A program made the position numbers and the translations under genes. The notes beneath the pieces were generated by a model. That model was not told the origin of the DNA and ran no database searches. It saw only the letters and a program-made list of their open reading frames with translations. Below, in pieces: positions 1,709-44,642 of a stretch of DNA of 64,000 nt. Within the stretch, counting starts at the first letter, position 1, and each line of letters begins with the position of its first letter. Source of the DNA: Candidatus Eiseniibacteriota bacterium (GTDB lineage Bacteria > Eisenbacteria > RBG-16-71-46); NCBI GenBank assembly GCA_016178725.1, contig JACOSV010000058.1:62001-126000 (forward strand). Direction: 5' to 3'.

Positions 1709-2110
1709 ATGTTCCAGGAGTTCAAGAAGTTCCTGCTCCAGACCAACGCGCTGGCGCTCGCGGTCGGCGTGATCATCGGCGCCGCGGTCGGCAAGGTCGT
1801 GAGCTCGCTGGTCGCCGACATCCTGATGCCCGTGATCGGCGTGATCATCCCGGGCGGGGCGTGGCGCGACCTCAAGTTCGTGCTCACGACCAAGCCGGAC
1901 GGCACGCCGGCCAACGCCATCACCTACGGCGCGTTCATCGGCAACGTCGTGGACTTCGTGATCGTCGCCGCGGTGGTGTTCATGATCACCAAGTCGCTGC
2001 TCAAGCCCGCGCCCGCCGCACCCGCGCCCGCGACCAAGGAATGCCCCGAGTGCAGGGAGACGATCCCGGCGACGGCGCGCAAGTGCCGGATGTGCGCCAG
2101 CGCGGTGTGA
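1709..2110 (+). CDS. mscL: Large-conductance mechanosensitive channel MscL with C-terminal zinc ribbon
   Basis: 133 residues. It begins MFQEFKKFLLQTNALALAVG and carries the MscL signature of TM1 (VGVIIGAAVGKVVSSLVADILMP) and a second membrane helix near residues 72-92 (FIGNVVDFVIVAAVVFMI). MscL forms a homopentameric pore in the inner membrane that opens under membrane tension and releases solutes on osmotic downshock. The usual C-terminal cytoplasmic helix is replaced by a Pro/Ala linker and a two-CxxC zinc ribbon (CPEC...CRMC) that runs to the stop. GAGGGGAGG 8-17 nt before the ATG is a good ribosome binding site. The last 38 bp are repeated at 3999-4036, behind the next gene. The next gene can start within the stop (GTGA overlap). 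Confidence 0.95.
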   Translation: MFQEFKKFLLQTNALALAVGVIIGAAVGKVVSSLVADILMPVIGVIIPGGAWRDLKFVLTTKPDGTPANAITYGAFIGNVVDFVIVAAVVFMITKSLLKPAPAAPAPATKECPECRETIPATARKCRMCASAV

Positions 2111-2111
2111 G
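2074..2111 (+). repeat. 38-bp direct repeat, copy A (mscL 3' end)
   Basis: This is the 3' terminal part of mscL encoding ...ARKCRMCASAV-stop plus one base. It is identical over 38 bp to 3999-4036. The two copies are 1925 bp apart and bracket the thioredoxin-like lipoprotein gene. Confidence 0.95.
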
Positions 2112-2130
2112 CGCACGCGGGGCGCTGCTC

Positions 2131-3987
2131 GTGAATCGTCGTTGGGCGCACGCGATCGTCGCGGCGATCGTCGTGCTCTCATGGCTCGCGACATCGTGCG
2201 CGACAGCGGGGGAAGCACGTCGTGTGGGCGCAACGCACGACGCCACGTACGTGACTCTCGTGAAGGGCGACACGCTGTTCGTCGAGCACGTGCGCGACGC
2301 GGACGGTGGCTTCATGGGCGAGATCATCGCCAGAGACGGCACGCCCTGGATCCGCTATCGCGCGTGGGTCGGTTCCGACGAAGCGATCATGCGGATCGAT
2401 CTCTCCATGACCTCCATGGGCGCCGCCCGGCCCGGTGATGTGCCACGGCCGCTCCTCACCGCGCGGCGCGAGCGTGACCGCGTCGTCATCGAGCCCGCGG
2501 AGCCGGGTCTCGGCATCACACGAACGGACGCCGCGGTGGACAGCGCGGCCTTCCTGACGATCGGGTCCTCGACCGGCATGACCGAGCAGGCGATACGGCG
2601 CGTCCGCCATATGGGACGTGGGACGGTTCGGCTCCGTGAAGTCGAGGCCATGGGCGGGCAGCTCTGGGAGGCGACGTTCACTCCCGGCAACCACGGTGCG
2701 CTCACCGTGACCGTCGGCCCCGAGACGTGGCGGTTCACGCTCGACGCAGGGGGCTCGATCCGCAGCGCCGACTGTCGGCTCGATGGCCGCATGCCGGGGT
2801 TCCGCGAGCTCGAGATCCATCGCATCGATTCGCGGGCACCGCTCGCGATCCGCCGCCCCGTCACGCTTCCCGACACCGCCGGACAGGTCAAGATCGATCG
2901 GCTGAAGGTGCGCTGGGCGCGCCTCGACGCCGTCGAGCGGGAGTTTCGGCGCACGCTGCACGAAGGCAGGGCGACCGCGATCCGCGTCGCGGCAGAGTCA
3001 GCGGTCGAGGCGATGGGCCTGCGCGGTGGTGCCTACCAGTCCATGCTCTGCACCGACGTCGCGATGGCCTTGCTCCGGGACGGTGACAAGACGTTCGCGC
3101 TCCTCTACGCGCATCGCGCGGTCGCCTATGCGAACAGCCACGACGTGCTGAGCTTCGGCGATCAGGGATTGCTCCAGGCGCGGATCTCCTCGCGTCGGGC
3201 GCTCGCCGAAGCGTTGTTCGCGCACGGCCACGCGGACAGCGCGTACCTTCTGGTCCGGCAGGCCATGGCGTTGCCGCGCGAGGAGGACGAGCTCGCGCTC
3301 CAGCGTGATCTCCGCCTGACGCTGGCGGGATTCCAGGAGTTCCAGGGCCGGCCGGACGATGCGATCGCCACCCTGTTCGAGGCCGTGGCGCTCGACACGT
3401 GCCATGACCTCCTCGCGCGTGCGCCGCTCCACCGGGTGTGGATGCGCCGATTTGGTGAAGACACCGATCTCGACCAGCGGATCGAGCACGCCCGCGAGCG
3501 GAAGTGGGCGAACGAAGTCCTCGGAGGCGGGGGTCCGATGCTCGATGGGGCGCGGGCGCCGGAGTGGGCGCTCTCTGATCTCAACGGCGCGGTTCGGCGG
3601 TCGTCGTCGTTCGCGGGCCGGCCGACCGTGCTTGTCTTCTGGGGCGGGTGGACGAGCGCCAATCGATCGATCCTGAGAACCGCGGAGGACTGGTATCGGC
3701 ACCGGTCGACGTGGGGCGTGAACGTGGTGAGCATCAACTGGGAGCTGCCGGGCCCGGGGCCGGTGAGCCGGGGGCTCGCCGCCGAGGCCATCGCGCGCGG
3801 GGGCTACCGCCTTCCCGTTCTGCTCGATCACGATCAGGCGGTGTTCAAGCGCTTCGGCGGCGAGCTATATCCGGCGATCGTCCTCATCGGCCGAGACGGC
3901 AGGGTTCGGCTCAGCACTTCCGGGGGCATGGCGGCGCGGAATCAGAAGCTGAGCGCTTCCGTGCGGGCCCTGGGGCGGGCGCTGTGA
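2131..3987 (+). CDS. Lipoprotein with TPR-like middle and inactive thioredoxin-fold domain
   Basis: About 618 residues from the GTG at 2131, chosen because it gives a clean signal peptide (MNRRWAHAIVAAIVVLSW then LATSC lipobox). A GTG at 2107 overlapping the mscL stop is the alternative. Residues about 60-270 form an unrecognised beta-rich domain. About 280-430 are helical and TPR-like, with a run of 'ALFAHGHADSAYLLVRQA' and 'GRPDDAIATLFEAVAL' type units. The C-terminal about 140 residues look like an AhpC/TSA-TlpA thioredoxin fold (GARAPEWALSDLNG, VLVFWGGWTSANRS, YPAIVLIGRDGRV). Where active TlpA proteins have WCxxC this one has WTSAN, so it cannot do thiol exchange in the usual way. Its bases appear less GC-saturated than its neighbours, and it is flanked by 38-bp direct repeats of the mscL end, both of which suggest transfer or insertion. 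The role is unknown. Confidence 0.75.
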   Translation: MNRRWAHAIVAAIVVLSWLATSCATAGEARRVGATHDATYVTLVKGDTLFVEHVRDADGGFMGEIIARDGTPWIRYRAWVGSDEAIMRIDLSMTSMGAARPGDVPRPLLTARRERDRVVIEPAEPGLGITRTDAAVDSAAFLTIGSSTGMTEQAIRRVRHMGRGTVRLREVEAMGGQLWEATFTPGNHGALTVTVGPETWRFTLDAGGSIRSADCRLDGRMPGFRELEIHRIDSRAPLAIRRPVTLPDTAGQVKIDRLKVRWARLDAVEREFRRTLHEGRATAIRVAAESAVEAMGLRGGAYQSMLCTDVAMALLRDGDKTFALLYAHRAVAYANSHDVLSFGDQGLLQARISSRRALAEALFAHGHADSAYLLVRQAMALPREEDELALQRDLRLTLAGFQEFQGRPDDAIATLFEAVALDTCHDLLARAPLHRVWMRRFGEDTDLDQRIEHARERKWANEVLGGGGPMLDGARAPEWALSDLNGAVRRSSSFAGRPTVLVFWGGWTSANRSILRTAEDWYRHRSTWGVNVVSINWELPGPGPVSRGLAAEAIARGGYRLPVLLDHDQAVFKRFGGELYPAIVLIGRDGRVRLSTSGGMAARNQKLSASVRALGRAL

Positions 3988-3998
3988 TGCGGCATGCG

Positions 3999-4036
3999 GG
4001 CGCGCAAGTGCCGGATGTGCGCCAGCGCGGTGTGAG
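3999..4036 (+). repeat. 38-bp direct repeat, copy B (orphan mscL tail)
   Basis: Perfect copy of 2074-2111, lying 12 bp after the stop of the lipoprotein gene and 3 bp before the convergent methyltransferase stop. An ATG at 3994 opens a 13-codon reading frame, MRARKCRMCASAV, that reproduces the second half of the MscL zinc ribbon. Whether this micro-frame is translated cannot be told. It most simply marks the original mscL end displaced by the insertion of 2112-3998. Confidence 0.9.
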
Positions 4037-4039
4037 GCG

Positions 4040-4858
4040 TCAGGGCTTTCGCGCCAGCGCGTACACGACGTTCGTCTCGACCGAGCGGACGCGGTTGCGG
4101 GCGATGAAATCGACGGTCGCCGCGCGCACGCGCTCGCGCCCGGCGCCGTCGGGCCGGTCGGGCGTGCCGCGATAGCCCGAGACGCGCACCGCAGTCCAGA
4201 AGACCTCGGGCGTCGCGATCGGATGTGATCCCGCCACCGCGACGATCTCGGCCGTCGCGACGCCGCCGTCGCGCAGGACCGCGGCGAGCGAGGCCGGATC
4301 GCAGATCCGATCCCACGGGTTGAATCCTTTGTAGAGGTCGGGTCGCACCTCGCGCACCGCGTCCCAGAACACGGTGTTCACGGGCTCGAAGAAGCGCGGG
4401 CCCCAGGTGGTGACGGCCAGCGCGCCGCCGGGCGCGACCTCGCGCCACAGCGCGCGCACGGCGGCGGCGATGTCCGGAACGAAGAACACCCAGAACACGC
4501 ACACCACCGCGTCGAAGGGCGACTCCGGCAGCCGGAGGTCGAGCATGTCGCCAGCGCGGAACTCGACGTGGCGCAACCCGCGCGCTTCGGCCTTGCGGCG
4601 CGCGAGCGCCAGCAGGTGCTCGGCGAGGTCGACGCCGATCACGCGGCCGCCGTCACCGACCGTCTCGGCGGCGGGAATCGCCGAGGCGCCGCTGCCGCAG
4701 CACACGTCGAGAATGCGGTCGCCGCGGCGCGGCGCAAGGCGTTCGATCGTCGCGCGCCCGTAGCGTTCCCAGAACGTGTTCGCCGGATCGTCGAAGCTGT
4801 CGGCGGCGGCGTTGTACGTCGTGCGGGCGCGGGCCCTCGCGTCGTCGAGCTCGGTCAT
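4040..4858 (-). CDS. Class I SAM-dependent methyltransferase
   Basis: 272 residues. The SAM-binding motif I is ILDVCCGSGASAIPAA (about residues 49-64), followed by the acidic 'GVDLAEHLLALARRKA' motif and 'GDMLDLRLPESPFDAVVCVF', the layout of the UbiE/Methyltransf_11 families. The protein is soluble and has no signal peptide. It converges on the mscL locus, with its stop only 3 bp from the orphan mscL repeat. No ribosome binding site is obvious before the ATG. The substrate cannot be deduced; a small-molecule substrate is most likely for this fold and length. Confidence 0.85.
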   Translation of the reverse strand: MTELDDARARARTTYNAAADSFDDPANTFWERYGRATIERLAPRRGDRILDVCCGSGASAIPAAETVGDGGRVIGVDLAEHLLALARRKAEARGLRHVEFRAGDMLDLRLPESPFDAVVCVFWVFFVPDIAAAVRALWREVAPGGALAVTTWGPRFFEPVNTVFWDAVREVRPDLYKGFNPWDRICDPASLAAVLRDGGVATAEIVAVAGSHPIATPEVFWTAVRVSGYRGTPDRPDGAGRERVRAATVDFIARNRVRSVETNVVYALARKP

Positions 4859-4868
4859 CGGCGGCAGT

Positions 4869-6239
4869 CTAGTGATTCACGGCCGCCCCGTCCTTCCACA
4901 TGCGCTGCCACCAGCGCATGTGGTCCTCGGGCCGCGACCAGTCGGCGGCGAGCGCCATCTTGTCGCGGATCTTCGCGAGCTCCCAGCCGGTGAGTTCGGC
5001 GACGTTGCCCGCCTCCTTCGCGCGGCGGTCGGCGAGTCCGGCGCGATAGGCGACCGCGCCGGGGCAATCGCCCTCGCCCTTCCACTCGTGACGGATGACG
5101 TACCGGTCCTGGAAGTTCGCGCGGTCGCTCGTCTCCTGGAACGCGAGGTCCTCGGGGAAGTGCTCCGCGTCGTAGCGCACGTGGAGGCGCGTCACGAACG
5201 GCGTCTGCCCGCCGCGCTGCGGGCCCGTGGCCGCCGCGATCCAGAAGCAGCCGAGCTGGCGCAGCTCGTCGTTCGAGAGCGGCTGGCTCGCGCACGGATC
5301 GCACCAGCCCATGTCCCACGCGTACTCGGTGAACACCACGTCCATGCCTTCATGGCGCACCTGGCGCGAGAACATGTCGCGGTAGAAGTCCTTGAACTCG
5401 GCCTGCACGAACTCGGGCACGTCGCGGTCGGAGGGGAGCTTCACGGTGCGGTAGTTCGTGGTCTCGACGCGGCCCTTGCGCGAGATCGCGTAGACGAACA
5501 TCTCCTGCGCGCCGTCGGCATTCACCATGCCGAGCCGGATCGGCAGCGAGAACCTGGGCGACTCGAACGCGACCTGGATCGGACGCAGGTACGTGAACCC
5601 GAGCTTCTGCTGCTCGCCGAGGTTCACCTTGGCGACGAAGAACTTCATCCCCTGCTTGATGTAGCTCGCGAGCACCGACGAGGCGCCGTTCGGGATGCGG
5701 TAGCCGTTCTCCTTGAGCCAGCGCTCGAGCCCGCCGCTCTCCTTCGCCGAGAGGATCAGGATGTCGTACTCGCCGACCGTGTACTGCGCCTCGATCGTGA
5801 CGCCGAGGCTCCGGCCTGCGCGGACGGAGATCTCTTCGAACGACTTCGCGACGCCGGCGGTTCGGGACGCGCGGAGCTCCATCGCGTCGCTCGCGACCGG
5901 GCACGGGTCGGGATCCCAGTACTCGACCAGCCGCGGCGCGGTGAACGCGTCGAGATGGTCGATGAGCGACTTGTCGCCGATATGGATCTGGCTCTTGTCG
6001 AGCACGACCGGCACCGGCACGACGATCGCGAACGCCTTCGGCTCGCCGCGAAAGTCGTTGGCCATCGTCAGCACGGTGCGGTCGCCGTCGCGCACCAGCG
6101 CCACCTGCGAGGCCTTGTTGAAGATCTTCGCGTCGCCGCTTGCGACGTAGAAGCCGCAGAAGGCGTGGGCCGCGCGCGGCGACACGAGCGCGGAACCCAG
6201 GACGACGGTGAGCAGCAGAAGCGTGAACGGGCGTTTCAT
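4869..6239 (-). CDS. DUF2330 secreted/membrane-attached protein
   Basis: 456 residues. GAGGAGG seven nt before the ATG fixes the start. A Sec signal peptide (MKRPFTLLLLTVVLGSALVSPRAAHA) is followed at once by 'FCGFYVASGDAKIFNKASQVALVRDGDRTVLTMANDF', the conserved opening of DUF2330 proteins, and 'AFAIVVPVPVVLDKSQI'. A Cys-containing block (WCDPCASQPLSNDELRQLGCFW) lies near residues 335-355. The family is exported and its biochemical role is unknown. The gene starts 10 nt after the stop of the RnfD-like membrane gene 6250-7308, so the two form an operon, which suggests a joint envelope function. Confidence 0.85.
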   Translation of the reverse strand: MKRPFTLLLLTVVLGSALVSPRAAHAFCGFYVASGDAKIFNKASQVALVRDGDRTVLTMANDFRGEPKAFAIVVPVPVVLDKSQIHIGDKSLIDHLDAFTAPRLVEYWDPDPCPVASDAMELRASRTAGVAKSFEEISVRAGRSLGVTIEAQYTVGEYDILILSAKESGGLERWLKENGYRIPNGASSVLASYIKQGMKFFVAKVNLGEQQKLGFTYLRPIQVAFESPRFSLPIRLGMVNADGAQEMFVYAISRKGRVETTNYRTVKLPSDRDVPEFVQAEFKDFYRDMFSRQVRHEGMDVVFTEYAWDMGWCDPCASQPLSNDELRQLGCFWIAAATGPQRGGQTPFVTRLHVRYDAEHFPEDLAFQETSDRANFQDRYVIRHEWKGEGDCPGAVAYRAGLADRRAKEAGNVAELTGWELAKIRDKMALAADWSRPEDHMRWWQRMWKDGAAVNH

Positions 6240-6249
6240 GCATGCCTCC

Positions 6250-7308
6250 TCACAGCGCGACCGGCGCCGGCGCGCGGCCGGCGAAGTCGCTCGGTTGAAT
6301 GCGGACGGCGGCAGGGGCGGCGCCCGCGGCGATGACGCTCCGTGTCGTGCGATCGCCGGATGCGGCGACCGCGGGGGTCCACTCATGGCGCGCGCCCGGC
6401 AGCAGCCGGTCGATCCACGGCGCGGCGAGCGTGAGGGCGGCGAGCGACCACACCGGTCCATTGGCGCGGAAGAGCGCGAACTGGACGATCCCGGCGCCGA
6501 TCGCGACCAGCGCCCCGAACAGCACGCGCCCGGCGCGCGAGTCCGGCGTGGTGCGCGGGTCCGAGATCATGTTGAACGCGAACTGGAGCAGCAGCCCGCT
6601 CTGCAGTCGGTGGATCGGGATCGTGAGCGGCTCGCAGAGCCAGAGCGAGCGGCCGAAGAGGATCGCGGCGTACGCGCCGAGGAACGCCAGCGTCACGTCG
6701 GCGCGGCCGGCGCGCATCACGACGGTGAGTCCGGCGCAGACGATCAGCAGCGCGACGAACGCGACGTGCCCGTACTGGCCGGGAGAGATCCAGCCCGCGC
6801 CGCTCGCGAGCATCACGACCAGCGCGAGGTTGGTCGGGTTCCAGAGGTGCTTGCCGCGGACGCGCAGCACGAACTTGCTCGCGATCGCGATCGCCGCGGC
6901 GAGCATGGCGGGCGCGATGCCGTGCGTGCGGAGCAGCGTGCAGAGGCCGATCGCCGAGATCAGCGCGCTCAAGGGATCGAAACGCGGCAGCCGGGCCATC
7001 CGCCCGCAGAGCCACTGCGTGGCGAGCGCCGCGCCGATCACGGCGGCGATCTGCGGAGCGCCGATGCCGAAGCCGAGGCCCAGGACGCCGTAGGCGAGCA
7101 GCGCCGAGAGCATCGCGATCTGGAACCAGCGCGGATCGCGCCGGGCCGGCGATGGAGTCCGGACCCGACGCGTCACGAGCTCGCGCCGCTCCCCTCGCAG
7201 CGCCCCGGAGGATGTGGCGCCGCGCGCCAATTGGTCATCGCGGCGCGCCGTAGCGAGGTTCCCGAGGCGCGTGTCCCTCGCGCGCCGTGCGGGTGTGGGA
7301 GCGTTCAT
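6250..7308 (-). CDS. RnfD/NqrB-like integral membrane protein
   Basis: 352 residues with about nine hydrophobic helices after a basic N-terminal tail of 60 residues. Two conserved blocks, 'GKHLWNPTNLALVVML' and 'QFAFNMISDPRTTPDS', are those of the RnfD/NqrB/RseC-neighbour membrane family whose classical members bind FMN through a Thr and carry electrons or couple ion movement. No other Rnf subunit is nearby, so this is a stand-alone relative, not part of a Rnf complex. GGAGAGG stands just before the ATG. It is the first gene of the pair with the DUF2330 protein and is divergent from ltrA. Confidence 0.75.
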   Translation of the reverse strand: MNAPTPARRARDTRLGNLATARRDDQLARGATSSGALRGERRELVTRRVRTPSPARRDPRWFQIAMLSALLAYGVLGLGFGIGAPQIAAVIGAALATQWLCGRMARLPRFDPLSALISAIGLCTLLRTHGIAPAMLAAAIAIASKFVLRVRGKHLWNPTNLALVVMLASGAGWISPGQYGHVAFVALLIVCAGLTVVMRAGRADVTLAFLGAYAAILFGRSLWLCEPLTIPIHRLQSGLLLQFAFNMISDPRTTPDSRAGRVLFGALVAIGAGIVQFALFRANGPVWSLAALTLAAPWIDRLLPGARHEWTPAVAASGDRTTRSVIAAGAAPAAVRIQPSDFAGRAPAPVAL

Positions 7309-7446
7309 GCCTCTCCGTACTCCGGTCGGGCCGACTCATTCCAGCGCCGAGAGGGAACGGGAGGCGGGGGGAACCCGCCCGTGAGCGGCGTTCCTAGCCG
7401 CGAGCACACTGCAAGACGCATTCCGCGGCGCCGGCCGCGGCAAACC

Positions 7447-7467
7447 GTTGTGCGCCCGTGCGGGCGC
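7447..7467. other. GC-rich hairpin in the ltrA leader region
   Basis: GCGCCCG (7452-7458) pairs with CGGGCGC (7461-7467), extended by GTT/AAC with a one-base bulge. It lies between the RnfD-like gene and ltrA. It could be a leader structure or a remnant terminator; there is no T-run. Confidence 0.4.
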
Positions 7468-7490
7468 AACGCGAAACGACGCGCCGGACC

Positions 7491-7525
7491 GTTACCCTCG
7501 TCACCGCTTCGGTAACAAAGGTGAC
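7491..7525. promoter_or_regulatory. Operator-like element: two GTYACC and two GGTRAC half-sites
   Basis: GTTACC (7491), GTCACC (7500), GGTAAC (7511) and GGTGAC (7520) form two interleaved perfect inverted repeats. Half-sites on each arm are exactly 9 bp apart, and the whole 35-bp block is centred on 7508. This regular spacing is typical of a site for a dimeric or tetrameric regulator. It lies about 50 bp before the chosen ltrA start and 180 bp before the divergent RnfD-like gene. The regulator is not identifiable. Confidence 0.55.
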
Positions 7526-7576
7526 AGTGCCGGGCCCGTGCGTTCGCGCCGCGCCGTTCTCTACCGTGCGGCGCCC

Positions 7577-8752
7577 GTGAACCACGCATCCAGAGCGCAC
7601 GCGCGCCCGGCCGCCGCGCGCCGGCCGCCGGTGCTCCGCGGCGCGCACGACGGCGAGCGCCACGCGACGTGGCTCGAGGTCTTCTTCGACCTCTGCTTCG
7701 TCGCGGCGGTCGCCGCGCTCACGCAGGAGCTGCGCGCCCATCCCTCGGTCGAAGGGCTGCTGCGCTTCGCCGGGCTCTTCGTGCCGGTGTGGTGGGCGTG
7801 GACCGGCTACAGCTGGTACGCGACCGGCTTCGACAACGACGACGACGTCTATCGCTCGGCGATGCTCGCCGCGATGCTGGCGGTGATCGCGCTCTCGGTG
7901 GGGATCGGCGGCGTCGCGAGCGGACGCATCGCGGGCTTCGTGCTCCCGTACGCGTTCATGCAGGGGCTGCTCGCGCTGCTCTTCCTGCGCTCGCGCCGCC
8001 ACGCGCGTCACGAGCGCGCGTTCACCACTGTCTACGCGCTCGGCGATGCGCTGGGCGCCGCGCTGTGGCTCGCGTCGCTGTGGGTGCCGCCGGCCCTGCG
8101 CGTGCCGACGTGGACGGCCGCGATGCTCGTGCTGATGACGACGCCGATGGTCGCCGCGCGCGCGATGCCGATCGAAACGTTCGACGCCTCGCACATCGCC
8201 GAGCGCTACGGCCAGTTCACGCTCATCGTGCTCGGCGAATCGATCGTCGCGGTGGCGGCGGGCACGGCGGCGACCGGGTGGAACGCCGGCGCGCTGGTCA
8301 CGGCGGCGATGGGCTTCGGTCTCGCGGCGTGCGTGTGGTGGGTGTACTTCGAGTTCGTCGAGGCGTCGGCGCTCGCGCGCGGCAACCTCGTGCGCGCGTT
8401 CGTGTGGGGCTACGGGCACCTGTTGATCTTCGCCGGCATCGCCGCGGCGGCGGCCGGCGTGCTGCTCGCGGTGATGGCGGCGGCCGGCGGCCGCGCGATC
8501 GGCGCCGCGGCGGGCGCGATCCTCGCCGGCGGCATGATCGCCGAGCTCGCCGCGATCGCGCTCATCCGCCTCACCGTGCGCGGCGGCGACGCGTCGGTCG
8601 CGGCGCGGGTCGCCGCAGCACTCGCGGCGGCGCTGCTCGCCGGGCTCGGCGGCGGGTTCGAGGCGCCCGCGTTCGTCGGCCTGCTGTTCGCGATCGTCGC
8701 GGCGGAAGCGCTGTTCGAAATCGTGCGGGCGAGGCGTTCGGCCGTCGCGTAG
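7577..8752 (+). CDS. ltrA: Low temperature requirement protein A (LtrA) family membrane protein
   Basis: About 391 residues from the GTG at 7577. The frame stays open upstream to 7448, but that stretch overlaps the operator-like element and is not family-like. The conserved LtrA opening 'ATWLEVFFDLCFVAAVAALT' is present, as are 'VWWAWTGYSWYATGFDNDD', 'ERYGQFTLIVLGESIVAVA' and 'WWVYFEF'. There are roughly ten membrane helices. LtrA was named from a cold-growth phenotype in Listeria; its molecular function is not settled. The gene stands alone. Confidence 0.85.
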   Translation: MNHASRAHARPAAARRPPVLRGAHDGERHATWLEVFFDLCFVAAVAALTQELRAHPSVEGLLRFAGLFVPVWWAWTGYSWYATGFDNDDDVYRSAMLAAMLAVIALSVGIGGVASGRIAGFVLPYAFMQGLLALLFLRSRRHARHERAFTTVYALGDALGAALWLASLWVPPALRVPTWTAAMLVLMTTPMVAARAMPIETFDASHIAERYGQFTLIVLGESIVAVAAGTAATGWNAGALVTAAMGFGLAACVWWVYFEFVEASALARGNLVRAFVWGYGHLLIFAGIAAAAAGVLLAVMAAAGGRAIGAAAGAILAGGMIAELAAIALIRLTVRGGDASVAARVAAALAAALLAGLGGGFEAPAFVGLLFAIVAAEALFEIVRARRSAVA

Positions 8753-8808
8753 CCGCACTCGTCCCGCGGCAGGGCGCGCCCGTCCTGTCGCGGCGCGGAT
8801 TCCGTTGC

Positions 8809-8842: not shown

Positions 8843-8887
8843 TCATTCCCACGCTTCCCCGTCACGCACGACACGAGGAGACACGCA

Positions 8888-10982: not shown

Positions 10983-10989
10983 TTCGGCT

Positions 10990-17781: not shown

Positions 17782-18123
17782 GTGACCCCCGGCCGCACTT
17801 CCGGGTCCCGCGGCACGGCGCTCTCGGCCGCCCTCCTGCTGGCGCTGACGGCAAGCGCCTGCGCGTGCCACGAGGCCGCGGATTCGTCGGCCGCCGCCCC
17901 TGCGCCGTCCGCCGCCGGCGACATGGCCCGACGTGCCGCCGAGGATCATGACGCGCATCGCACGGGATTTGCTCCGCTCGACCGGGAGCGACTAGCTCTT
18001 CTTCTCGGTCGGGCCCATCGGGCCCGGATCGCGCCTCGGACTAGCCGAGCAGCTCGAGGTCCGCCAGATCCCGAGGGCGTCCGAGCGCGCGTTTGTTGCG
18101 GATCAGCTGCTCGCGGCCGATGA
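17782..18123 (+). CDS. Short lipoprotein-like frame, 3' half probably replaced
   Basis: A GTG 4 nt after the response regulator stop opens 113 codons. The first about 65 residues make sense: basic start, hydrophobic core (LSAALLLALTASAC lipobox) and a Ser/Ala/Pro-rich spacer. From about 17990 on, however, the frame runs antisense through the orphan cytochrome tail and then the nucleotidyltransferase 3' end, giving Arg/Ala-rich sequence typical of GC-rich shadow translation. The likeliest reading is a lipoprotein gene, co-transcribed with the two-component system, whose 3' end was lost at the rearrangement. Expression is uncertain. Confidence 0.35.
   Translation: MTPGRTSGSRGTALSAALLLALTASACACHEAADSSAAAPAPSAAGDMARRAAEDHDAHRTGFAPLDRERLALLLGRAHRARIAPRTSRAARGPPDPEGVRARVCCGSAARGR
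17994..18031 (-). repeat. Orphan copy of the cytochrome c 3' end
   Basis: On the minus strand this encodes DPGPMGPTEKKS and, with the preceding CTA at 17992, a stop codon. The intact cytochrome gene ends DPGPVGPTEKKS-stop. The 38 bp match 18682-18719 at 35 positions. It lies 10 bp beyond the stop of the nucleotidyltransferase gene and is not attached to any cytochrome reading frame. Confidence 0.85.
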
Positions 18124-18679: not shown

Positions 18680-19654
18680 TCAGCTCTTCTTCTCGGTCGG
18701 CCCCACCGGGCCGGGATCGTGGGTCGAGGGCGGCACGGTCTTGATGTAGCGGTAGATCGCGCGCAGGTCGTCCTCGTCGAGCTTCATCAGTCCCTGCCAC
18801 GGCATCGGTGAGCCGGGCAGCAGGCGCCCGGCGCGCAGCCGCGTGACGAACTGATCCTCGCTCATCGATCCGAGCCGGCCGTGCGTGGGATCGACGGTGA
18901 TGTTGGGCGTCGACCAGTAGCGGCCCCGCTCGTCGGTGATGAATCCCGCCGAGCCGCCGAGCCTGGGCCCCGTGAAGGCGCCGGTCTTCTCGTCGCGCTG
19001 CGTGTGGCAGCTCACGCACAGCGCCACCGATTCGACCAGGTAGCGTCCGTTCTCGGCCGTCGCGCCCCGCGGACTCTTCGCCGTGACGTCGGGCTTCGGC
19101 CCGACGGGGCTGGCGAGCACGGTCGCCTTCAGCACGCTGCCCAGCGCCGAGTACCGATGCGCCGACACGACGTTGTGCACCGGCGGCTGCGCCTTGAGGT
19201 ACGACACCACGGCGATCAGATCTTCGTCCGAGAATCCCTGGAATTCCATGAACGGCAGCAGCGCGCGGCCGTCGATGCCGACGCCGCTGCGCAGCGCGCG
19301 CGCGATCGCCTTCGCCGGCGCGGCGCCGATTCCGGTCTCGGCGTCGGGCGTGATGTTGCGCACGTAGAACGTGCCCGGCGGGATGTCGAAGACCCGTCCG
19401 CCGATGAGCGGCACGTCGGCGCCGCTCAGCATCGCCTGCACCTGCGTCGTGTCGCCGTGGCACTGCGCGCAGTTGGCCATGTCGCGGACGATGTAGCGCC
19501 CGCGCGCGACGACGGCGCTGTCGGTGGACGCCTCGAGGGGCGGATACGGCGTCGCGGCGAACGAGAGGTGCTGCCGCGAGGCGACGAAGACCGCGATCCC
19601 CGCGACGAGCACCACCACGAGCACGACCAGGATCAGCAGGACCTTGCGGATCAT
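18680..19654 (-). CDS. Dihaem c-type cytochrome, membrane anchored
   Basis: 324 residues. One N-terminal membrane helix (KVLLILVVLVVVLVAGIAVFVAS) anchors two periplasmic cytochrome c domains with haem sites CAQCH (about residue 62) and CVSCH (about residue 212). Downstream methionines in each domain can be axial ligands. The arrangement is that of alcohol-dehydrogenase-type subunit II and related electron carriers, so it probably hands electrons to a terminal oxidase; no dehydrogenase gene is adjacent. AAAGGAAGG lies 6-14 nt before the ATG. Its terminal 38 bp occur again at 17994-18031. Confidence 0.9.
   Translation of the reverse strand: MIRKVLLILVVLVVVLVAGIAVFVASRQHLSFAATPYPPLEASTDSAVVARGRYIVRDMANCAQCHGDTTQVQAMLSGADVPLIGGRVFDIPPGTFYVRNITPDAETGIGAAPAKAIARALRSGVGIDGRALLPFMEFQGFSDEDLIAVVSYLKAQPPVHNVVSAHRYSALGSVLKATVLASPVGPKPDVTAKSPRGATAENGRYLVESVALCVSCHTQRDEKTGAFTGPRLGGSAGFITDERGRYWSTPNITVDPTHGRLGSMSEDQFVTRLRAGRLLPGSPMPWQGLMKLDEDDLRAIYRYIKTVPPSTHDPGPVGPTEKKS
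18682..18719 (-). repeat. Cytochrome c 3' end (repeat partner)
   Basis: Last coding bases of the intact cytochrome gene; matches 17994-18031 at 35 of 38 positions. The two copies are in the same orientation, 688 bp apart, and bracket the nucleotidyltransferase pair. Confidence 0.85.
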
Positions 19655-29657: not shown

Positions 29658-31400
29658 TCAGGGGATCAGGGCGAGCTTTTCGACCCGTGCCGGCGCGGCG
29701 CCGGCGCGCACCACCGCCAGATAGACGCCGGCCGGGAGCCGGGCGCCCGCGGCGTCGCGGCCGTCCCAGTCGAGCGTGTGCGGCCCGGGGGCGAGCGCCA
29801 CGCCGTCGAGGAGCACGCGCACCGTGCGGCCGCTCACGTCCGTGATGCGCGCGTCCACGCGCGATTCGGCATCGAGCGAGAACGCGAGGCGCGTCGCGAC
29901 GCGCATGGGATTCGGCGCGGCGGCGAGCGCCACCGGCGGCAGCGCCGGCAGGCCGGGCACGTCCACGGTCGGCACGCCGCCCGCGCCCGCGATCCGCTGT
30001 GCGTAGAGGTCGGCGCTCGTGCCGCGCTGATCGGACCACGCGATGATCGCGCCGCCCGTGCCGTCGGCCATGATCGAGTTCAGGTACTGGTCGCCGGCGG
30101 CGCCGCAGTACACGGCGCCGTTCGCGCTCCATCCCGCAGGCAGCGTGCCCGCGCCGCTGACCCGCAGCGCGTAGACGTCGGTCGCCGCGGCGCCGGTGCG
30201 CTGGTCGTTCCACGCGATGAACGCCCCGCCCGCCGCGTCGCTCGCGACCGCAGGATCGAATTGGTTGCCGTCCGCGGTGCAGATCGCGAGACCGTTCGCC
30301 GGCCAGCCGGCGGCGATCGCGCCGGCGGGCGTCGCGTGCTGGGCGTAGATGTCGCTCAATCCCGCGCGCAGGTCGATCCAGGCGACGAACGCGCCGCCCG
30401 CGCCGTCCGCCGCGATCGAGCCGCCGTACTGTTCGGCGAGGTCGGTGCAGATCGCGAGGCCGTCGGCGGTCCACTTCGCCGCGCCGTCGGCGCCGATGCG
30501 CTGCGCGTACACGTCCGAGTTGTCCGAACGATGGTCCTCCCACTCGACCAGCACGCCGCCCGCGCCGTCGCTCGCCGCGTGGAGCTCGATCTGATCGCCC
30601 GCGGCGGTCGTGACCGGGACGCCGTTCGTCGCCCACTGCACCACGCCGGAAATACTGACGCGCTGCGCGAACACGTCGCCGTTGCCGGCGCCGTTGCGGT
30701 CGTCCTCCCAGACGATGATCGCGCCGCCCGCGCCGTCCGTGACCGCGACCGGGAACCGCTGGTCGCCGGCGGCCGCGCAGATCGGGATGCCGCTCACGGT
30801 CCACTGCGCGATACCCGCCGTGTTGACGCGCTGGGCATAGATGTCGCCCAAGCCGCTGCGGAAGTCCTCCCAGACCACGATCGCGCCGCCCGCGCCATCG
30901 CGCACGATGCTGGGGTGTCCCTGCACGCTGGTGAGCGTGCACACGTCCACGCCGCTCGCGGGCCAGCCGGCGGCGATCGCGCCGCCCGCGTTGACGCGCT
31001 GGACGTAGATGTCGGGGTTCGATCCGCCGGCGCGGTAATCCTCCCAGGCGATGTACGCGCCGCCGACGCCGTCGGAGGCGATCACGGGCGCCACCTGATC
31101 CTGCGCCGCGGTGCACAGCGCGCGTCCATCGGCCGGCCAGCCGCTGCCGAGCACGCCGTTCGGTCCGACGCGCATCGCGTAGACATCGCTCGCGGTGCCG
31201 CGGCGATCCTCCCAGACGGCGATCGCGCCGCCGGTGCCGTCGGGCGCCATCACCGGGTAGTTCTGGTCGCCGCTCGCGGTGCAGAGCGCGCGGCCGTCCA
31301 CCGGCCAGGCGGCGTGCGCCGGCGCGGCGCACGCGGCGAGCGCCAGGGCGCAGAGGGCGGCGCGAACGAGCGCGCGATCGAGTGAGCGCATGCGGAGCAT
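29658..31400 (-). CDS. Secreted eight-repeat protein with C-terminal FlgD-like Ig domain
   Basis: 580 residues from the ATG at 31400. A signal peptide (RAALCALALAACAAPAHA) precedes eight tandem repeats of about 54-58 residues. Each starts W-P/T/A-x2-G, has a C-T/A near residue 9, 'D-G-x-G-G-A' and 'V/A-W-E-D-x-R', and ends 'D-I/V-Y-A-Q-R-V'; this is a beta-propeller-like pattern. The last about 90 residues (PNPMRVATRLAFSL, ITDVSGRTVRVLL, LDWDGRDAAGARLPAGVYL) are the FlgD Ig/T9SS-like C-terminal domain typical of secreted proteins in Eisenbacteria and relatives. It is likely a surface or released protein; no ligand can be named. Confidence 0.85.
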   Translation of the reverse strand: MLRMRSLDRALVRAALCALALAACAAPAHAAWPVDGRALCTASGDQNYPVMAPDGTGGAIAVWEDRRGTASDVYAMRVGPNGVLGSGWPADGRALCTAAQDQVAPVIASDGVGGAYIAWEDYRAGGSNPDIYVQRVNAGGAIAAGWPASGVDVCTLTSVQGHPSIVRDGAGGAIVVWEDFRSGLGDIYAQRVNTAGIAQWTVSGIPICAAAGDQRFPVAVTDGAGGAIIVWEDDRNGAGNGDVFAQRVSISGVVQWATNGVPVTTAAGDQIELHAASDGAGGVLVEWEDHRSDNSDVYAQRIGADGAAKWTADGLAICTDLAEQYGGSIAADGAGGAFVAWIDLRAGLSDIYAQHATPAGAIAAGWPANGLAICTADGNQFDPAVASDAAGGAFIAWNDQRTGAAATDVYALRVSGAGTLPAGWSANGAVYCGAAGDQYLNSIMADGTGGAIIAWSDQRGTSADLYAQRIAGAGGVPTVDVPGLPALPPVALAAAPNPMRVATRLAFSLDAESRVDARITDVSGRTVRVLLDGVALAPGPHTLDWDGRDAAGARLPAGVYLAVVRAGAAPARVEKLALIP

Positions 31401-35589: not shown

Positions 35590-35591
35590 CG

Positions 35592-36954: not shown

Positions 36955-36967
36955 GCGCGCGCCGTGC

Positions 36968-38454: not shown

Positions 38455-38544
38455 GCGAATCTCCCGACGATGAAGGGACGTCTTCGCGGGGGGATGAGTG
38501 GTTGGATGCGCGGCCGGGCCTGGGCGATCCGCGACGATTCGCGT

Positions 38545-39963: not shown

Positions 39964-40340
39964 AGCAGGAGCCTCCGGAAGTGGAACCGGCGCCGCCCTA
40001 AGGTCGCGCGCCGCACACGGGCGACGATCGCACGCGACCACCACCCTCGAGAAACAGCGGCGGAGTATAGCCGCACCCCGGCGGAGGCACACAGCAATTT
40101 GCCTGCCGCACAAGGCCTTGACAGCGATCGCCGCGCCGGCGCGCACGGCGCCGCGCATGCGGCGTTCGCGGCCGTGGCGCGCCTGCCGCGCTCGTCGCCG
40201 CATGGCCGCGCCGGTCGGCCGCGGACCGGCGCGCACGCGGCCGGGCGCTATCCTCGTCGGCCGGACCGCGCACCCGGGCGGCGCTCCGTACCGGCATTCG
40301 TGCTTCGTTCACGCCCGGCTCGTGTGGGAGATTCGCAACC
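39964..40340. other. 377-bp divergent intergenic region
   Basis: It separates the SurA-like gene (minus) and the LytS-like kinase gene (plus) and must hold both promoters. On the minus strand TATACT (40064-40069) is the best -10 candidate. On the plus strand TATCCT (40249-40254) is a weaker one. A CAAGGCCTTG palindrome at 40111-40120 runs into a TTGACA at 40118-40123 with no -10 at proper spacing. No gene is supported. Confidence 0.4.
40064..40069 (-). promoter_or_regulatory. -10-like box for the SurA-like gene (TATACT)
   Basis: The minus strand reads GCGGCTATACTCCGCC, about 100 nt before the TTG start. The same GCTATACT core lies before metG. No matching -35 is visible, so it may be recognised through the -10 alone. 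Confidence 0.4.
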
Positions 40341-42503
40341 GTGACCCATGAGTTCCGCGCCCGCCGCGCGCTGGCGGTCGTGGCCGTGGCGGTCGCCTTG
40401 AGCTTCGCGGCGCCGCGCTTCCTCACCCACACGCCCTATCCGCGCCTCGGCGTCTCGCTCACGATCGACGCGGCGCGCGGCCTGCCCAAGGTGGCGCGCG
40501 TCCTCGGCCCGCCGGCCGAGGGGTTGCTCCGCGACGGCGACGTGCTGATCTCCGTCAACGGCGAGCGCATGCGTGCGCCGTCGCTGCGGCCCTCGGCGCC
40601 GCACGATCGGCTGCCGCGCGACGTCTTCACGCTCGAGTTCGAGCGCGACGGCCGCGTCATGCGCGTGCTCATGCCGCCGGTCCACCTCTCGCCGTGGCAG
40701 CGGCTGCGCGCGCTGCTCGTGCCGCTCACGGCGGTGGTCGCCGCGCCGCTGGTCGCGTTCTGGCTCGTGTGGCGGCGGCCCGACATCGGCACCGCGTGGA
40801 CATTCCTGCTGTTCGCCAATCTGCAGGCGGTCGCGGTCGTGCACGAGGTGTATCGCACGCCCGACTTCGAGCCGACGGGCCTGTTCAAGAGCTACCTCGC
40901 CCTCTACGGCTGGCTGGTGTGCTTCGCGCCGGCGTCGTTCATCCATTTCATGTCGGTGTTCCCGCGCCCGCGCTGGCGGCCGGGCGCGATGGCGCGCAGT
41001 CCGTGGTTCTGGCTGATCGTCGCCGGCTACGTCACGCCGCTCTACTTCATCGCGCGGCTGATCGCGGACGGATCGCTGCCGCAGCAGCCGTTCGCGGTCT
41101 ATCAGACGCTGGCCATGGCACTCGGCGTGGTTTCGATCGTCGAGCGCTACGGGCGCCCCGGGCGCGGCGACTGGCATCCGACCCGCAGCCAGCGCGGCCT
41201 CGCGCTCGGCGTCGCGCTCTTCCTGCTGATCGGCGCGGCGCTCGGCTGGGCGCTCGAGAACGAGGCGTTCGCGGCGCTGCTCCAGTTCTCGGGCTTCCGG
41301 CTCATCGCGGCGGCGGTGAGCTTCACGCTGCTCGGCACGCCGTTCGTCATGGCGTTCCTGATCGCGCGCGACCCGGTGTTCGATCCGCGCCGGCTGCTCG
41401 AGCGCGGGCTCCCGTACGCGCTGCTCTCGGGCGTGCTCGCGGCGCTCTACCTCGGCATCGTCGTCGCCGGGCAGCGGCTGTTCGCCTCGATCACCGGCGA
41501 GCAGGCGCTGGTGATCAACGTGGTCGCGGCGCTGGTGGTGGCGTTCGTGTTCGCGCCGCTGCGCGTGCGGCTGCAGCGCGCGCTCGACCGCCTGTTCCGC
41601 CGCGACGTGATGGCGCTGCGCGCGGCGCTCGATCAGGCGGGGCGCGAGCTGCTGCGCGCGCTCGACCGCGACGACGCGCGCGCCTCGGTCGAGGCGGCGC
41701 TGCTGCGTGGGATCGGCCGCCGGGTCGCGCTCGACTGGCCCGAGAACGGTCCGCCGCGGCTCGCGGCGGGCGAGGAGCTGCCCGAGCACGCGCAGGGCGC
41801 GGTCGAGAACCTGCTCAATCAGGCCGGCATCCGGCTCGAGAATCTGGCGCTCCAGGAGCAACGCGGCGCCGCCGAGCGCCGAGCCGTCGAGCTGCGCGAG
41901 GCCGCGACCCGCGCCGAGCTGCGCGCGCTCCACGCGCAGATCCAGCCGCACTTCCTGTTCAACGCCTTGAACGCGCTCTCGTATCTCACCGAGACCGATC
42001 CGCGCGCCGCGCAGCGCTTCACCGAGCGGCTCGCCGACATGCTGCGCTACACGGTCGAGGCGGGCGGCCGCAGTGCCGCGCTGCTCGGCGACGAGATCGC
42101 GTTCGTCGAGGACTACCTCGGCATCGCGCGCGAGCGCTACGACGGCGAGCTGGCGTTCCAGTTCCGCGGCGCGCGCGAGCTGCTCTCGGTGACGGTGCCG
42201 CCGCTGCTGCTCCAGCCGCTGGTCGAGAACAGTCTGAAGCACGGGCTCGCGCCGGACGCCGAGGCGCTCCATCTCTCGCTCGACGCCTGCCGCCGCGACG
42301 GCTGGCTCGAGCTCACGTTTTCGGACGACGGCACGGCCAACGGCAACGGATCGCGCGGCCTCGGCGTCGGCCTCGACAATCTCGAGCAGCGCGTGCAGCG
42401 CTTCGCCGGCCCCGGCTCGAGCATGAGCGCCGGTCCGCGGCCGGAAGGCGGATTCGCCGTGACCATGCGCTGGCGCGACCAGGGTGCGGAGGTGAAGCGA
42501 TGA
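40341..42503 (+). CDS. LytS-type sensor histidine kinase with PDZ-like N-terminal domain
   Basis: 720 residues from a GTG. After one membrane helix, residues about 33-110 resemble a PDZ domain ('RLGVSLTIDAARGLPKVARVLGPPAEGLLRDGDVLISVNGERM'). Then come about eight membrane helices (about 128-415), a coiled helix, and the LytS His_kinase domain with H537 in 'HAQIQPHFLFNALNALSYL', N box 'PLVENSLKHGL' and 'GVGLDNLEQRVQRF'. A PDZ domain outside the membrane suggests that it senses a peptide or protein C-terminus. It is co-translated with the LytTR regulator (4-bp overlap). Confidence 0.88.
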   Translation: MTHEFRARRALAVVAVAVALSFAAPRFLTHTPYPRLGVSLTIDAARGLPKVARVLGPPAEGLLRDGDVLISVNGERMRAPSLRPSAPHDRLPRDVFTLEFERDGRVMRVLMPPVHLSPWQRLRALLVPLTAVVAAPLVAFWLVWRRPDIGTAWTFLLFANLQAVAVVHEVYRTPDFEPTGLFKSYLALYGWLVCFAPASFIHFMSVFPRPRWRPGAMARSPWFWLIVAGYVTPLYFIARLIADGSLPQQPFAVYQTLAMALGVVSIVERYGRPGRGDWHPTRSQRGLALGVALFLLIGAALGWALENEAFAALLQFSGFRLIAAAVSFTLLGTPFVMAFLIARDPVFDPRRLLERGLPYALLSGVLAALYLGIVVAGQRLFASITGEQALVINVVAALVVAFVFAPLRVRLQRALDRLFRRDVMALRAALDQAGRELLRALDRDDARASVEAALLRGIGRRVALDWPENGPPRLAAGEELPEHAQGAVENLLNQAGIRLENLALQEQRGAAERRAVELREAATRAELRALHAQIQPHFLFNALNALSYLTETDPRAAQRFTERLADMLRYTVEAGGRSAALLGDEIAFVEDYLGIARERYDGELAFQFRGARELLSVTVPPLLLQPLVENSLKHGLAPDAEALHLSLDACRRDGWLELTFSDDGTANGNGSRGLGVGLDNLEQRVQRFAGPGSSMSAGPRPEGGFAVTMRWRDQGAEVKR

Positions 42504-43315
42504 GGATGTCGCAGCGGAAGCATGCGCCCGACGAGCGCGGCGGCGAGGGCGGCGCATTGCGCGCCGTGATCGCCGACGACGAGCCACGCGCGCGCCAGTT
42601 CCTCGACCGGCTCCTGAAGGAGCACGGCGAGGTCGAGGTGGTCGCCAAGGCGAGGAACGGCGCCGAGGCGCTCGCCGCGGTCGGCAGGCACCGGCCCGAC
42701 GTCGTGTTCCTCGACATCCAGATGCCCGACCTCTCGGGGCTCGAGGTGGCGCGGCACTTCATCGGCCGCGAGCCGCCGGTGGTCGTGTTCGTCACCGCCT
42801 ACGACCAGCACGCGGTCGAGGCGTTCGAGGTCGCCGCACTCGATTATCTCCTCAAGCCGATCCGCCGCGAGCGGCTCGCCGAGACGCTGCGCCGCGTCGC
42901 GCACGAGGTGAAGAGCGGCGCGCGCGCCGCCGGGCAGGAGGCGGCGGTGCGCGCGGTGCTCGCGAGCCCCGACGTGCAGCAGAGCCTCGAGCCGCTGCGG
43001 CGATTGCCGGTGCGTTTCCGGCGCGAGGTGCGGCTGCTCGATCTCGAGCAGGTGTCGCGCATCGTCTCGCGCGACCGCGTCGTGCTCGCGTGCGCCGACG
43101 GGCGCGAGTATCTCGTGGACTACACGCTGCAGGAGCTCGAAGAACGCCTGCCGCCCGGCCAGTTCGTGCGCGCGCACCGCGCGGCGCTGGTCAACATCGA
43201 CGCGATCGAGTCGTACGGCGGCGAGGACGGCGTGCTGGTGCTGCGGCTCAAGGACGGCACGCGCGTCGAGGCGAGCGAGCGCCGTGCAGCCGAGGTGCGG
43301 CGGAAGTTGCGGTAG
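42500..43315 (+). CDS. LytTR-type response regulator
   Basis: 271 residues. Receiver domain with DD at about 26-27, phosphoacceptor D72, T99 and K119; then a linker and a LytTR DNA-binding domain (VRLLDLEQVSRIVSRDRVVLACADGREYLVDYTLQELEERL, QFVRAHRAALVNIDAIES). It begins inside the kinase stop (ATGA), so the two form a cognate pair. LytTR proteins bind paired direct repeats of about 9-10 bp. A strong hairpin directly follows. Confidence 0.93.
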   Translation: MRMSQRKHAPDERGGEGGALRAVIADDEPRARQFLDRLLKEHGEVEVVAKARNGAEALAAVGRHRPDVVFLDIQMPDLSGLEVARHFIGREPPVVVFVTAYDQHAVEAFEVAALDYLLKPIRRERLAETLRRVAHEVKSGARAAGQEAAVRAVLASPDVQQSLEPLRRLPVRFRREVRLLDLEQVSRIVSRDRVVLACADGREYLVDYTLQELEERLPPGQFVRAHRAALVNIDAIESYGGEDGVLVLRLKDGTRVEASERRAAEVRRKLR

Positions 43316-43325
43316 GGGGCATTCC

Positions 43326-43351
43326 GGCAACTGGCTGCGCGGCCAGTTGCC
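43326..43351. terminator. Bidirectional terminator hairpin
   Basis: GGCAACTGGC (43326-43335), 6-nt loop, GCCAGTTGCC (43342-43351): ten perfect pairs with mixed composition, so not a chance GC stem. It lies between the convergent LytTR regulator and the 43410-44012 membrane gene. Confidence 0.65.
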
Positions 43352-43409
43352 ACAATCCGGATGCGTTCCTACTCCGCGCGCCGCCCCGTCAGCGCAACGT
43401 GTACGCGGG

Positions 43410-44012
43410 TCAACGCAGCAAGCCGCCGGTGGACTCAGGGGGCGCCGTGGCGCGGATCTCGGCGTCGCTGCCCGGTCGCGGACGCGTTGCGCCGGCGCTG
43501 GAACCCGCCCTCGATTCGCTCAATTGAACGAAGACCGCTCCGAGAACGGTCAGCGTCGAGATCGCGATGCCGACCGAGCGCACGATGCGTTTCGTATGCC
43601 GATAGCCTCCGCCGTGTCCGATCTTCACCCTTTTCTTGACCGGACGCTTCTCGTCACCGATCGCGACCTCGCCGAACAGGCCCAGCACCTCGCACTGACG
43701 GACGTATTCGTCGCCGAAATTCGCGTAGATCTTGTGGTCTTCCTCGATCTTGCGATTCGTGGCCGACACGATGACCGCGGCGAGCAGGCTGGTCACGGCA
43801 GCCACCGACCAGGCGAGCGTACCCGCGTGCGGAATCGGGTGGCTGGGCACGATGATCGCCGCGAAGATGGCGCCGATCGCCGTGAGCAGGGTGGTGAGCA
43901 GGCTGATCGCGTCGCGCTTGTGCGCGAGCTCGGAGTCGTGGTACGCGCGCATCGCGTCGAACAACTCGCGCTTGTTCGCGTCGTGAGTCTTGCGCGCCTC
44001 GGCATCGAGCAT
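43410..44012 (-). CDS. Three-helix membrane protein, unknown function
   Basis: 200 residues from the ATG with GGAGG 8 nt upstream; an ATG at 44036, preceded by GGAGTAGG from the orphan permease tail, would add MATTEDPR. A charged helix (about 1-28) leads to two membrane helices (about 30-50 and 58-78), then a soluble Cys-containing segment ('NRKIEEDHKIYANFGDEYVRQCEVLGLFG'), a basic loop and a third helix (about 142-162) with a Ser/Ala/Pro tail. Not recognised as a defined family; the 2-helix-plus-soluble layout loosely recalls SLATT-like membrane proteins. Base composition is less GC-rich than its neighbours. Confidence 0.65.
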   Translation of the reverse strand: MLDAEARKTHDANKRELFDAMRAYHDSELAHKRDAISLLTTLLTAIGAIFAAIIVPSHPIPHAGTLAWSVAAVTSLLAAVIVSATNRKIEEDHKIYANFGDEYVRQCEVLGLFGEVAIGDEKRPVKKRVKIGHGGGYRHTKRIVRSVGIAISTLTVLGAVFVQLSESRAGSSAGATRPRPGSDAEIRATAPPESTGGLLR

Positions 44013-44037
44013 ACGGGGGTCCTCCGTGGTCGCCATC

Positions 44038-44060
44038 CTACTCCGCGCGCAGCGCCTCGA
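44038..44060 (-). repeat. Orphan copy of an ABC permease 3' end
   Basis: On the minus strand the frame reads RPIEALRAE-stop, the standard C-terminus of MacB/FtsX-like permeases, with nothing of the permease left upstream: an in-frame TGA (the stop of the PH-domain gene) precedes it by 11 codons. The 23 bp are identical to 44620-44642, the end of the intact permease. Confidence 0.8.
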
Positions 44061-44076
44061 TCGGGCGCTCGCGACG

Positions 44077-44574
44077 TCAGGCTCCGGATCGATGCGCGCC
44101 CTCTTCGGCCCCGAGCGGCTCGCCCGCCGCCGCGGCCTGCACGGCATGGCGAAAGTCGAGCGGCGACTGGATTCCCGAGAACGACTCCCGGGTCCCGCCG
44201 CTCCCGGTGACGACGATGTCGCCGTAGCCGAAGAGGCGGCCCGCAAGGCTCTGGCTCACGGCGATCGCCTCGATCTTCGGCAACAGCAGCTCGATCGAAC
44301 GCGTGCTCAGCACGCCGACCTTGATGATGACGCGCCGGTTGGTGACCGCGAACTCGGCGCTGCGCCGGCGCGTCCGGGCGATTCCCATCATGACCAGCGC
44401 CGCCAGGGCCGGCGGGAGAGCGAGCAGCTTCGTCCCGGATCCGAGGGCGACCACGATCAGCGGCAGCAGCACGAGCAGCGCGATCAGGATCGGCACCACG
44501 TACGACTTCCAGTGGAGCAGCGTCCGGTACGTCACCGTCTCCCCGGGCAGCAGATGCCTGTCGACGTAGCCCAT
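44077..44574 (-). CDS. Bacterial PH-domain (DUF304/bPH2) membrane protein
   Basis: 165 residues. AAAGGAG lies six nt before the ATG. Two membrane helices (about 25-47 and 49-67) are followed by a bacterial PH domain ('EFAVTNRRVIIKVGVLSTRSIELLLPKIEAIAVSQSLAGRLFGYGDIVVTGSGG'). Members of this family are envelope proteins of mostly unknown role, some in stress responses. It directly follows the ABC permease gene, and 14 bp after its stop comes the orphan permease tail, so it looks like cargo inserted at the permease stop. Confidence 0.88.
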   Translation of the reverse strand: MGYVDRHLLPGETVTYRTLLHWKSYVVPILIALLVLLPLIVVALGSGTKLLALPPALAALVMMGIARTRRRSAEFAVTNRRVIIKVGVLSTRSIELLLPKIEAIAVSQSLAGRLFGYGDIVVTGSGGTRESFSGIQSPLDFRHAVQAAAAGEPLGAEEGAHRSGA

Positions 44575-44619
44575 CTCGCTCCTTTCGCCCCGATGTCGCG
44601 CGCCCCGGGATCGCGGTCG

Positions 44620-44642
44620 CTACTCCGCGCGCAGCGCCTCGA
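44620..44642 (-). repeat. ABC permease 3' end (repeat partner)
   Basis: Terminal bases of the intact permease gene (…PVEALRAE-stop), identical to 44038-44060. Same orientation, 582 bp apart, bracketing the PH-domain gene. Confidence 0.8.

Follow-up and report, generated by a model that had tools for sequence, protein, structure and literature searches.

Three gene ends copied past unrelated genes

The stretch of DNA studied here (64 kb, positions 1-64000, hereafter the window) belongs to a metagenome assembly of Candidatus Eisenbacteria. It contains three loci that are organized alike. An intact host gene is followed, on the same strand, by one or two genes unrelated to it, the cargo, and the cargo is followed by a second copy of the last bases of the host gene (Table 1). 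The three repeats had been noticed in an initial annotation of this DNA, and all of them are recovered, each beyond 0.56-1.9 kb of cargo. The copies had been described there as ending in the stop codon of the host. A stop is indeed kept in all three, but at the cytochrome c locus it is TAG where the host has TGA. The mscL repeat extends 1 nt past the TGA and the permease repeat ends exactly at the TAG.

In NCBIfam, cargo 1 and cargo 3 have weak matches only (thioredoxin-like and PuhB-like, respectively) and cargo 2 has none; PADLOC gave no match, and no Rfam match was found in the window. Third-position GC in the window cargos (0.73-0.92; 0.85 for cargo 1) does not exceed the average of the genome (0.93).

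Table 1. Genes and repeats of the three loci, with window positions
Feature	Position	Strand	Match or support
Host gene 1: mscL, zinc-ribbon-like C-terminus, 133 aa	1709..2110	+	Pfam MscL 2.6e-32
mscL 3′ end, copy within intact gene	2074..2111	+	38/38 vs 3999-4036
Cargo 1: TlpA/AhpC-TSA-domain protein, 617 aa, GTG start 2134	2134..3987	+	Pfam AhpC-TSA 3.4e-09
mscL 3′ end, second copy past cargo 1	3999..4036	+	38/38 vs 2074-2111
Convergent neighbour 1: methyltransferase	4040..4858	-	Pfam Methyltransf_25
Host gene 2: diheme cytochrome c, 324 aa	18680..19654	-	Pfam Cytochrome_CBB3 1.7e-12
Cytochrome c 3′ end, copy within intact gene	18682..18719	-	35/38 vs 17994-18031
Cargo 2a: small open reading frame (ORF), 70 aa	18429..18641	-	recognisable partner in 71/80 related loci
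Cargo 2b: DUF6036/AbiEii-like nucleotidyltransferase, 144 aa	18041..18475	-	distant profile/PDB matches
Cytochrome c 3′ end, second copy past cargo 2, stop TAG instead of TGA	17994..18031	-	35/38
Host gene 3: MacB/FtsX-type ABC permease, 400 aa	44620..45822	-	Pfam MacB_PCD + FtsX
Permease 3′ end, copy within intact gene	44620..44642	-	23/23 vs 44038-44060
Cargo 3: bacterial PH-domain protein, 165 aa	44077..44574	-	Pfam bPH_2 4.8e-13
Permease 3′ end, second copy past cargo 3	44038..44060	-	23/23 vs 44620-44642

Recurrence in the genome and comparison with chance

The search for comparable cases covered 1.49 Mb of the 3.07 Mb of the genome (about 49%), read in stretches, with genes called by a codon-usage model. 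Ungapped direct repeats with a spacing of 200-6000 bp and a score of at least 22 were retained where they touched a gene end or non-coding DNA. Twelve pairs passed, versus 0 in each of five equally large codon-shuffled/Markov controls. This comparison with shuffled sequence, proposed along with the first description of the loci, rules out chance in high-GC DNA as the origin of the repeats. An overlap artefact of the assembly is unlikely too, since joining at an overlap would leave a single copy, and the majority of the pairs contain mismatches.

Among the 12 pairs are dispersed repeats and tandem paralogues, such as the two permeases at C83 47977/49246. The host-cargo-tail arrangement is found in five of them: the three loci of the window and two further cases outside it, on C17 and C6. 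Three of the five thus lie inside one 64-kb window, despite 1.43 Mb more having been scanned; the window was flagged for them. On C17, a gene of the carboxymuconolactone-decarboxylase (CMD) family (106232-106828) has a copy of its tail at 105320-105390 (68/71). The cargo, 0.85 kb long and AT-richer (GC 0.595), holds an unknown gene of ~240 codons (L127, G000 C17 5503-6231). On C6, the end of a DinB-like gene, a label that comes from reading the sequence and not from a profile match, is present at 1932-2088 and at 7794-7950 (149/157), with 5.7 kb between. The copied DinB end adjoins sequence derived from tRNA-Lys, and C6 also carries a classical copy of the tRNA-Lys 3′ end with a 2.4-kb insert. 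The region as a whole (L105, G000 C6 1500-10441) consists of two stacked lower-GC islands at tRNA-Lys, with tRNA 3′-end copies at ~2072 and ~7934; the end of the DinB-like gene is duplicated along with the first of these copies.

The mirror form, in which a copied 5′ end would precede the cargo and the host, gave no clear case in the same 1.49 Mb. With five cases only, this asymmetry in favor of 3′ ends is suggestive only.

Properties of the sites and of the copies

At the mscL, CMD, and DinB loci, the copied tail and its neighbour are convergent. The stop of the copy is 4 bp from that of the methyltransferase gene at the mscL locus and 2 bp from that of a sortilin-like gene at the CMD locus, in agreement with the initial view that the tail stands where the host would end if the cargo were removed. 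Because this tight spacing looks like a native compact junction, the copy past the cargo probably represents the resident end. More generally, the strong sites of the genome are mostly convergent junctions. Inserts at such places break neither promoter nor frame, so that the bias toward gene ends is explicable by survival alone.

The five repeats are unrelated to one another in sequence and have no common att core. Their length ranges from 23 to 157 bp and their divergence from 0 to ~8%, a spread to be expected if no fixed att site is involved, and they exceed the target duplications of transposons (38, 38, and 23 bp in the window, ~72 bp on C17, 157 bp on C6). The reported lack of element ends is borne out, the inserted units sharing none. 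The lack of an integrase, also reported, holds for this contig. None was matched among the cargo proteins and the five PF00589 matches of the genome all lie off the contig, serine recombinases not having been searched genome-wide.

At two loci, the copies differ mainly at silent positions. For cytochrome c and CMD together, five of the seven changed codons are silent, including the TGA/TAG change and a two-base AGG/CGC change; at least five are obtained in 1.5-2% of random-substitution simulations. The downstream copies at these loci look as if a second coding allele had been left behind.

At the permease locus, the second copy reads RERPIEALRAE-stop and the end of the host reads MDPVEALRAE-stop. 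Like C-termini are found again among further permeases, in this genome and in relatives, and the same genome has, on C83, tandem permeases with near-identical C-termini. Hence, the repeat may correspond to a conserved C-terminus of the family and the locus may be what is left of another permease. The orthologous permease of two relatives has no PH-domain gene behind it and ends at a convergent junction.

Cargos and hosts in relatives

Relatives comprised one other species of the genus (the sister species, G001) and, for the surveys of donors and cargos, 47 genomes of the class. Among relatives, the cargos are patchy accessory genes. Cargo 1 has, in the 47 genomes, a homologue in the sister species (50% identity) and one distant match elsewhere. 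The nucleotidyltransferase of cargo 2 occurs in 14 of the 47, and the protein of the sister species is 78% identical to that of the window. Both genes stand at other loci in the sister species, with no copied tail seen. The PH-domain gene is present in 11 of 39 relatives. Judging from these distributions, cargo appears to move INDEPENDENTLY of host genes.

Full-length tandem paralogues, the alternative raised in the initial annotation, were not seen in relatives for mscL or cytochrome c, nor was any repeat straddling either gene. No flanking direct repeat was found at the control loci of mscL (n = 24), cytochrome c (n = 24), or the bPH gene (n = 8). As for the adjacency of mscL and the methyltransferase gene, no orthologous methyltransferase was found in relatives. 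One genome without a close full copy of the cytochrome c gene carries an orphan 3′ remnant of it, 49 codons long (L227, G009 C119, 1071-1217). An apparent orphan tail in G007 turned out to be a contig end.

The nucleotidyltransferase pair in other phyla

From a species-genome collection, 80 nucleotidyltransferase loci were kept out of 420 cargo-2 relatives, and 77 of them were usable. In a genome from another Eisenbacteria genus (G018; L290/L274, C253), the cargo-2 pair is bracketed by a 32/33 bp direct repeat, with a spacing of 664 bp compared with 688 bp in the window. The target there is not a gene end: a terminator-like hairpin follows another gene, and the repeat, with clean edges, corresponds to one of its arms. 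At L291 (Acidobacteria), 52 bp of a gene end are copied past the insert, and the copy stops 7 bp before the stop codon. At L343 (Thermodesulfovibrionales), a 23-bp repeat lies between convergent genes. L290, L291, and L343 are clear cases of a flanking repeat; at L332 a strong repeat of 203 bp stands in an ambiguous genomic context. A flanking repeat with a score of at least 20 is found in 6 of the 77 loci and in 0 of 460 mismatched left/right flank pairs, and 6 of the 15 repeats in these loci straddle the cargo, where geometry alone would give 16% (binomial p ~0.02, by hand); both counts call for caution, L361 being an apparent dispersed intergenic repeat, L290 the G018 locus itself, L322 matching at just 52/67 and figuring in the first count only, and L310 figuring in the second only. 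The inserted stretches begin and end at no common sequence.

Some cargo-2b proteins match DUF6036 or AbiEii. With the DUF6036 profile, 6 of 11 members are matched, the best at 1.3e-07; the window protein is at 0.0087, below the curated cut-off. One distant relative was found in the PDB, the AbiEii/AbiGii-type toxin 8an4. Owing to these similarities, a toxin-antitoxin-like role of the pair may be guessed. No cargo-2b gene was found in phages, and six distant relatives were found in plasmids. A bolder idea, which we regard as distinctly unlikely, would make the small ORF and the nucleotidyltransferase a minimal transposase-free mobile unit, inserting time and again with target duplications of ~20-60 bp in several phyla and with capture promoted by host recombination or by a function of the pair itself. 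This pair is an unexpected lead and the part that deserves to be followed up.

Possible origins of the loci

Several origins may be envisaged. In the favored one, to which a probability of about 0.6 may be given, each locus would be an independent acquisition by imprecise homology-assisted illegitimate recombination leaving two copies of the target flank, the outcome known as insertion with long target duplication. The incoming DNA, linear or circularised, would carry the end of a host gene followed by the cargo and would pair with the resident gene thanks to this homologous anchor. The far end of the cargo would then be joined illegitimately within the last tens of bases of the resident gene, yielding an intact host gene, the cargo, and the resident tail. 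Survivors would be seen at gene ends, and mostly at convergent junctions, since nothing is broken there. The donor arrangement, a dependence on RecA, and the sequence of steps are our inference. This reading draws on repeats in excess of the shuffled controls, the recurrence on C17 and C6, the variable repeat length, the patchy cargos, the flanking repeats of the cargo-2 pair in other genomes, the lack of common ends or of a linked integrase, and the bias toward silent changes at two loci, as well as on published precedents. Since the genome encodes a ComEC-family protein, DNA could plausibly be taken up. In such a mechanism, no stop-seeking enzyme is needed. The stop-codon targeting put forward in the initial annotation is contradicted by the cargo-2 sites: elsewhere, the target copies around the same pair belong to a terminator hairpin, to intergenic DNA, and to a gene end short of the stop.

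A number of observations weigh against homology-assisted acquisition. No empty site was found in relatives, where the junctions between host and neighbour are not conserved or fall at contig ends; in the sister species, mscL and the permease gene are at contig ends, the cytochrome c gene is missing from the corresponding position, and the CMD gene is found on another contig than the sortilin gene. No donor arrangement of host and cargo was found in the 47 genomes of the class. The mscL copies are identical and thereby bring no information on allelic divergence. In the DinB repeat, two of the eight changed codons are silent (counted by eye), as in unconstrained DNA, and changes at random positions fit a plain target duplication and not an exchange of alleles. 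At four loci the similarity ends no more than 1 nt from the stop, something that purely random breakpoints would not demand. Lastly, homology-facilitated illegitimate recombination (HFIR) in the laboratory generally removes about as much recipient DNA as is inserted (PMC3240628), whereas here the tail is retained and the repeats measure 23-157 bp.

The target may instead have been duplicated without any homologous donor allele, by template switching or by the filling of widely staggered breaks. The two copies would then start identical and drift, which agrees with the mscL locus; template switching also fits better the DinB differences, at random codon positions, and the hairpin-arm target of G018 with its clean edges and 32/33 match. 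Such a process does not predict the excess of silent changes at cytochrome c and CMD, nor a similarity ending so close to the stop codon at four loci, and we hold it to be rather unlikely.

Integrative elements with an attB site at the 3′ end of a tRNA or protein gene leave a copied 3′ end past the insert and restore the gene. The present loci resemble them in both respects and could be remnants of such elements, the integrase having been lost later; the 3′-end position, the restored coding end, and the silent differences would be accounted for, and a true tRNA-Lys 3′-end copy exists elsewhere in the genome. However, to serve five unrelated targets, several integrases would have been required, every one of them lost since, and the inserts are of one or two genes, with neither a fixed att sequence nor defined ends. 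With five different targets, no common core, and no integrase match on the contig, the involvement of an integrase is very unlikely. Just as improbable is the decay of tandem paralogues, in which the cargo would have stood between two host copies, the second being deleted down to its tail: it suits copies diverged as coding sequence, the orphan cytochrome c remnant of G009, the tandem permeases of C83, and above all the permease locus, which it fits best, but the same short-tail deletion would be needed each time, no paralogue sequence is seen outside the repeats, and in relatives neither mscL nor cytochrome c has a tandem paralogue.

Relation to described processes

It had been suggested that the insertion process could be undescribed. 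However, insertion with long target duplication, HFIR, and duplications due to single crossovers are already in the literature (PMC1643837; PMC3031569; PMC3240628). Insertion with long target duplication was seen between two strains of H. pylori and often concerned restriction-modification genes (Nobusato et al., 2000, via PMC1643837 and PMC3031569). As far as these accounts go, the likeness resides in the small cargo, the absence of a transposase, and direct repeats of the target that are long and differ in length; variable repeat length and the lack of conserved insert ends, marks of that class, are found here. By contrast, the known cases as related there are mainly restriction-modification genes and come from pairs of strains, whereas the present cargos are a TlpA-like gene, a nucleotidyltransferase pair, and a PH-domain gene from one genome. 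By appearance, the loci would belong with this class.

HFIR and the integration of circles combine one homologous anchor with one illegitimate junction, as proposed here, and single crossovers of circularised DNA give target duplications of 109-950 bp (PMC3240628). In the type VI secretion system (T6SS) arrays of V. cholerae, displaced 3′ gene ends occur and HFIR has been proposed (PMC5361080). There too, a new module arrives at a gene and pushes the old 3′ end downstream (PMC5361080). However, in those arrays the effector is replaced, whereas the present host genes remain whole and bear no relation to their cargo. The loci are best regarded as new examples of a described process; the initial observation is confirmed and extended, and the interpretation that came with it is partly supported.

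Other repeats

Repeats of other kinds were encountered. GGGCCGCGCTTCGCGCGGCGCCCGC occurs in the window at 55417-55437, 56280-56304, and 58453-58477, twice in direct orientation and, for 21 bp of it, once inverted; it is hairpin-like. A 90-bp tandem repeat at 56664-56842 encodes Asp-rich (D.DGDG) units, and a gene at 29658-31400 has many internal repeats ~162-168 bp apart. Elsewhere in the genome, palindromic intergenic repeats resembling repetitive extragenic palindromes (REP-like), of the form CGGCGCCGCG..CCAAGTTGATCACGCGGCGG, are dispersed (G000 C83 3246-3388, C11 1374/5442/5469, C74 9722, C39 2063).

Concluding remarks

Single accessory genes move between genomes without a visible mobile element, and the step by which they land is mostly obscure. 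Junctions that retain the duplicated target are direct footprints of this landing step. In this context, the cargo-2 pair, bracketed in several phyla, offers a natural set of cases for separating a homologous anchor, template switching, and staggered ends.

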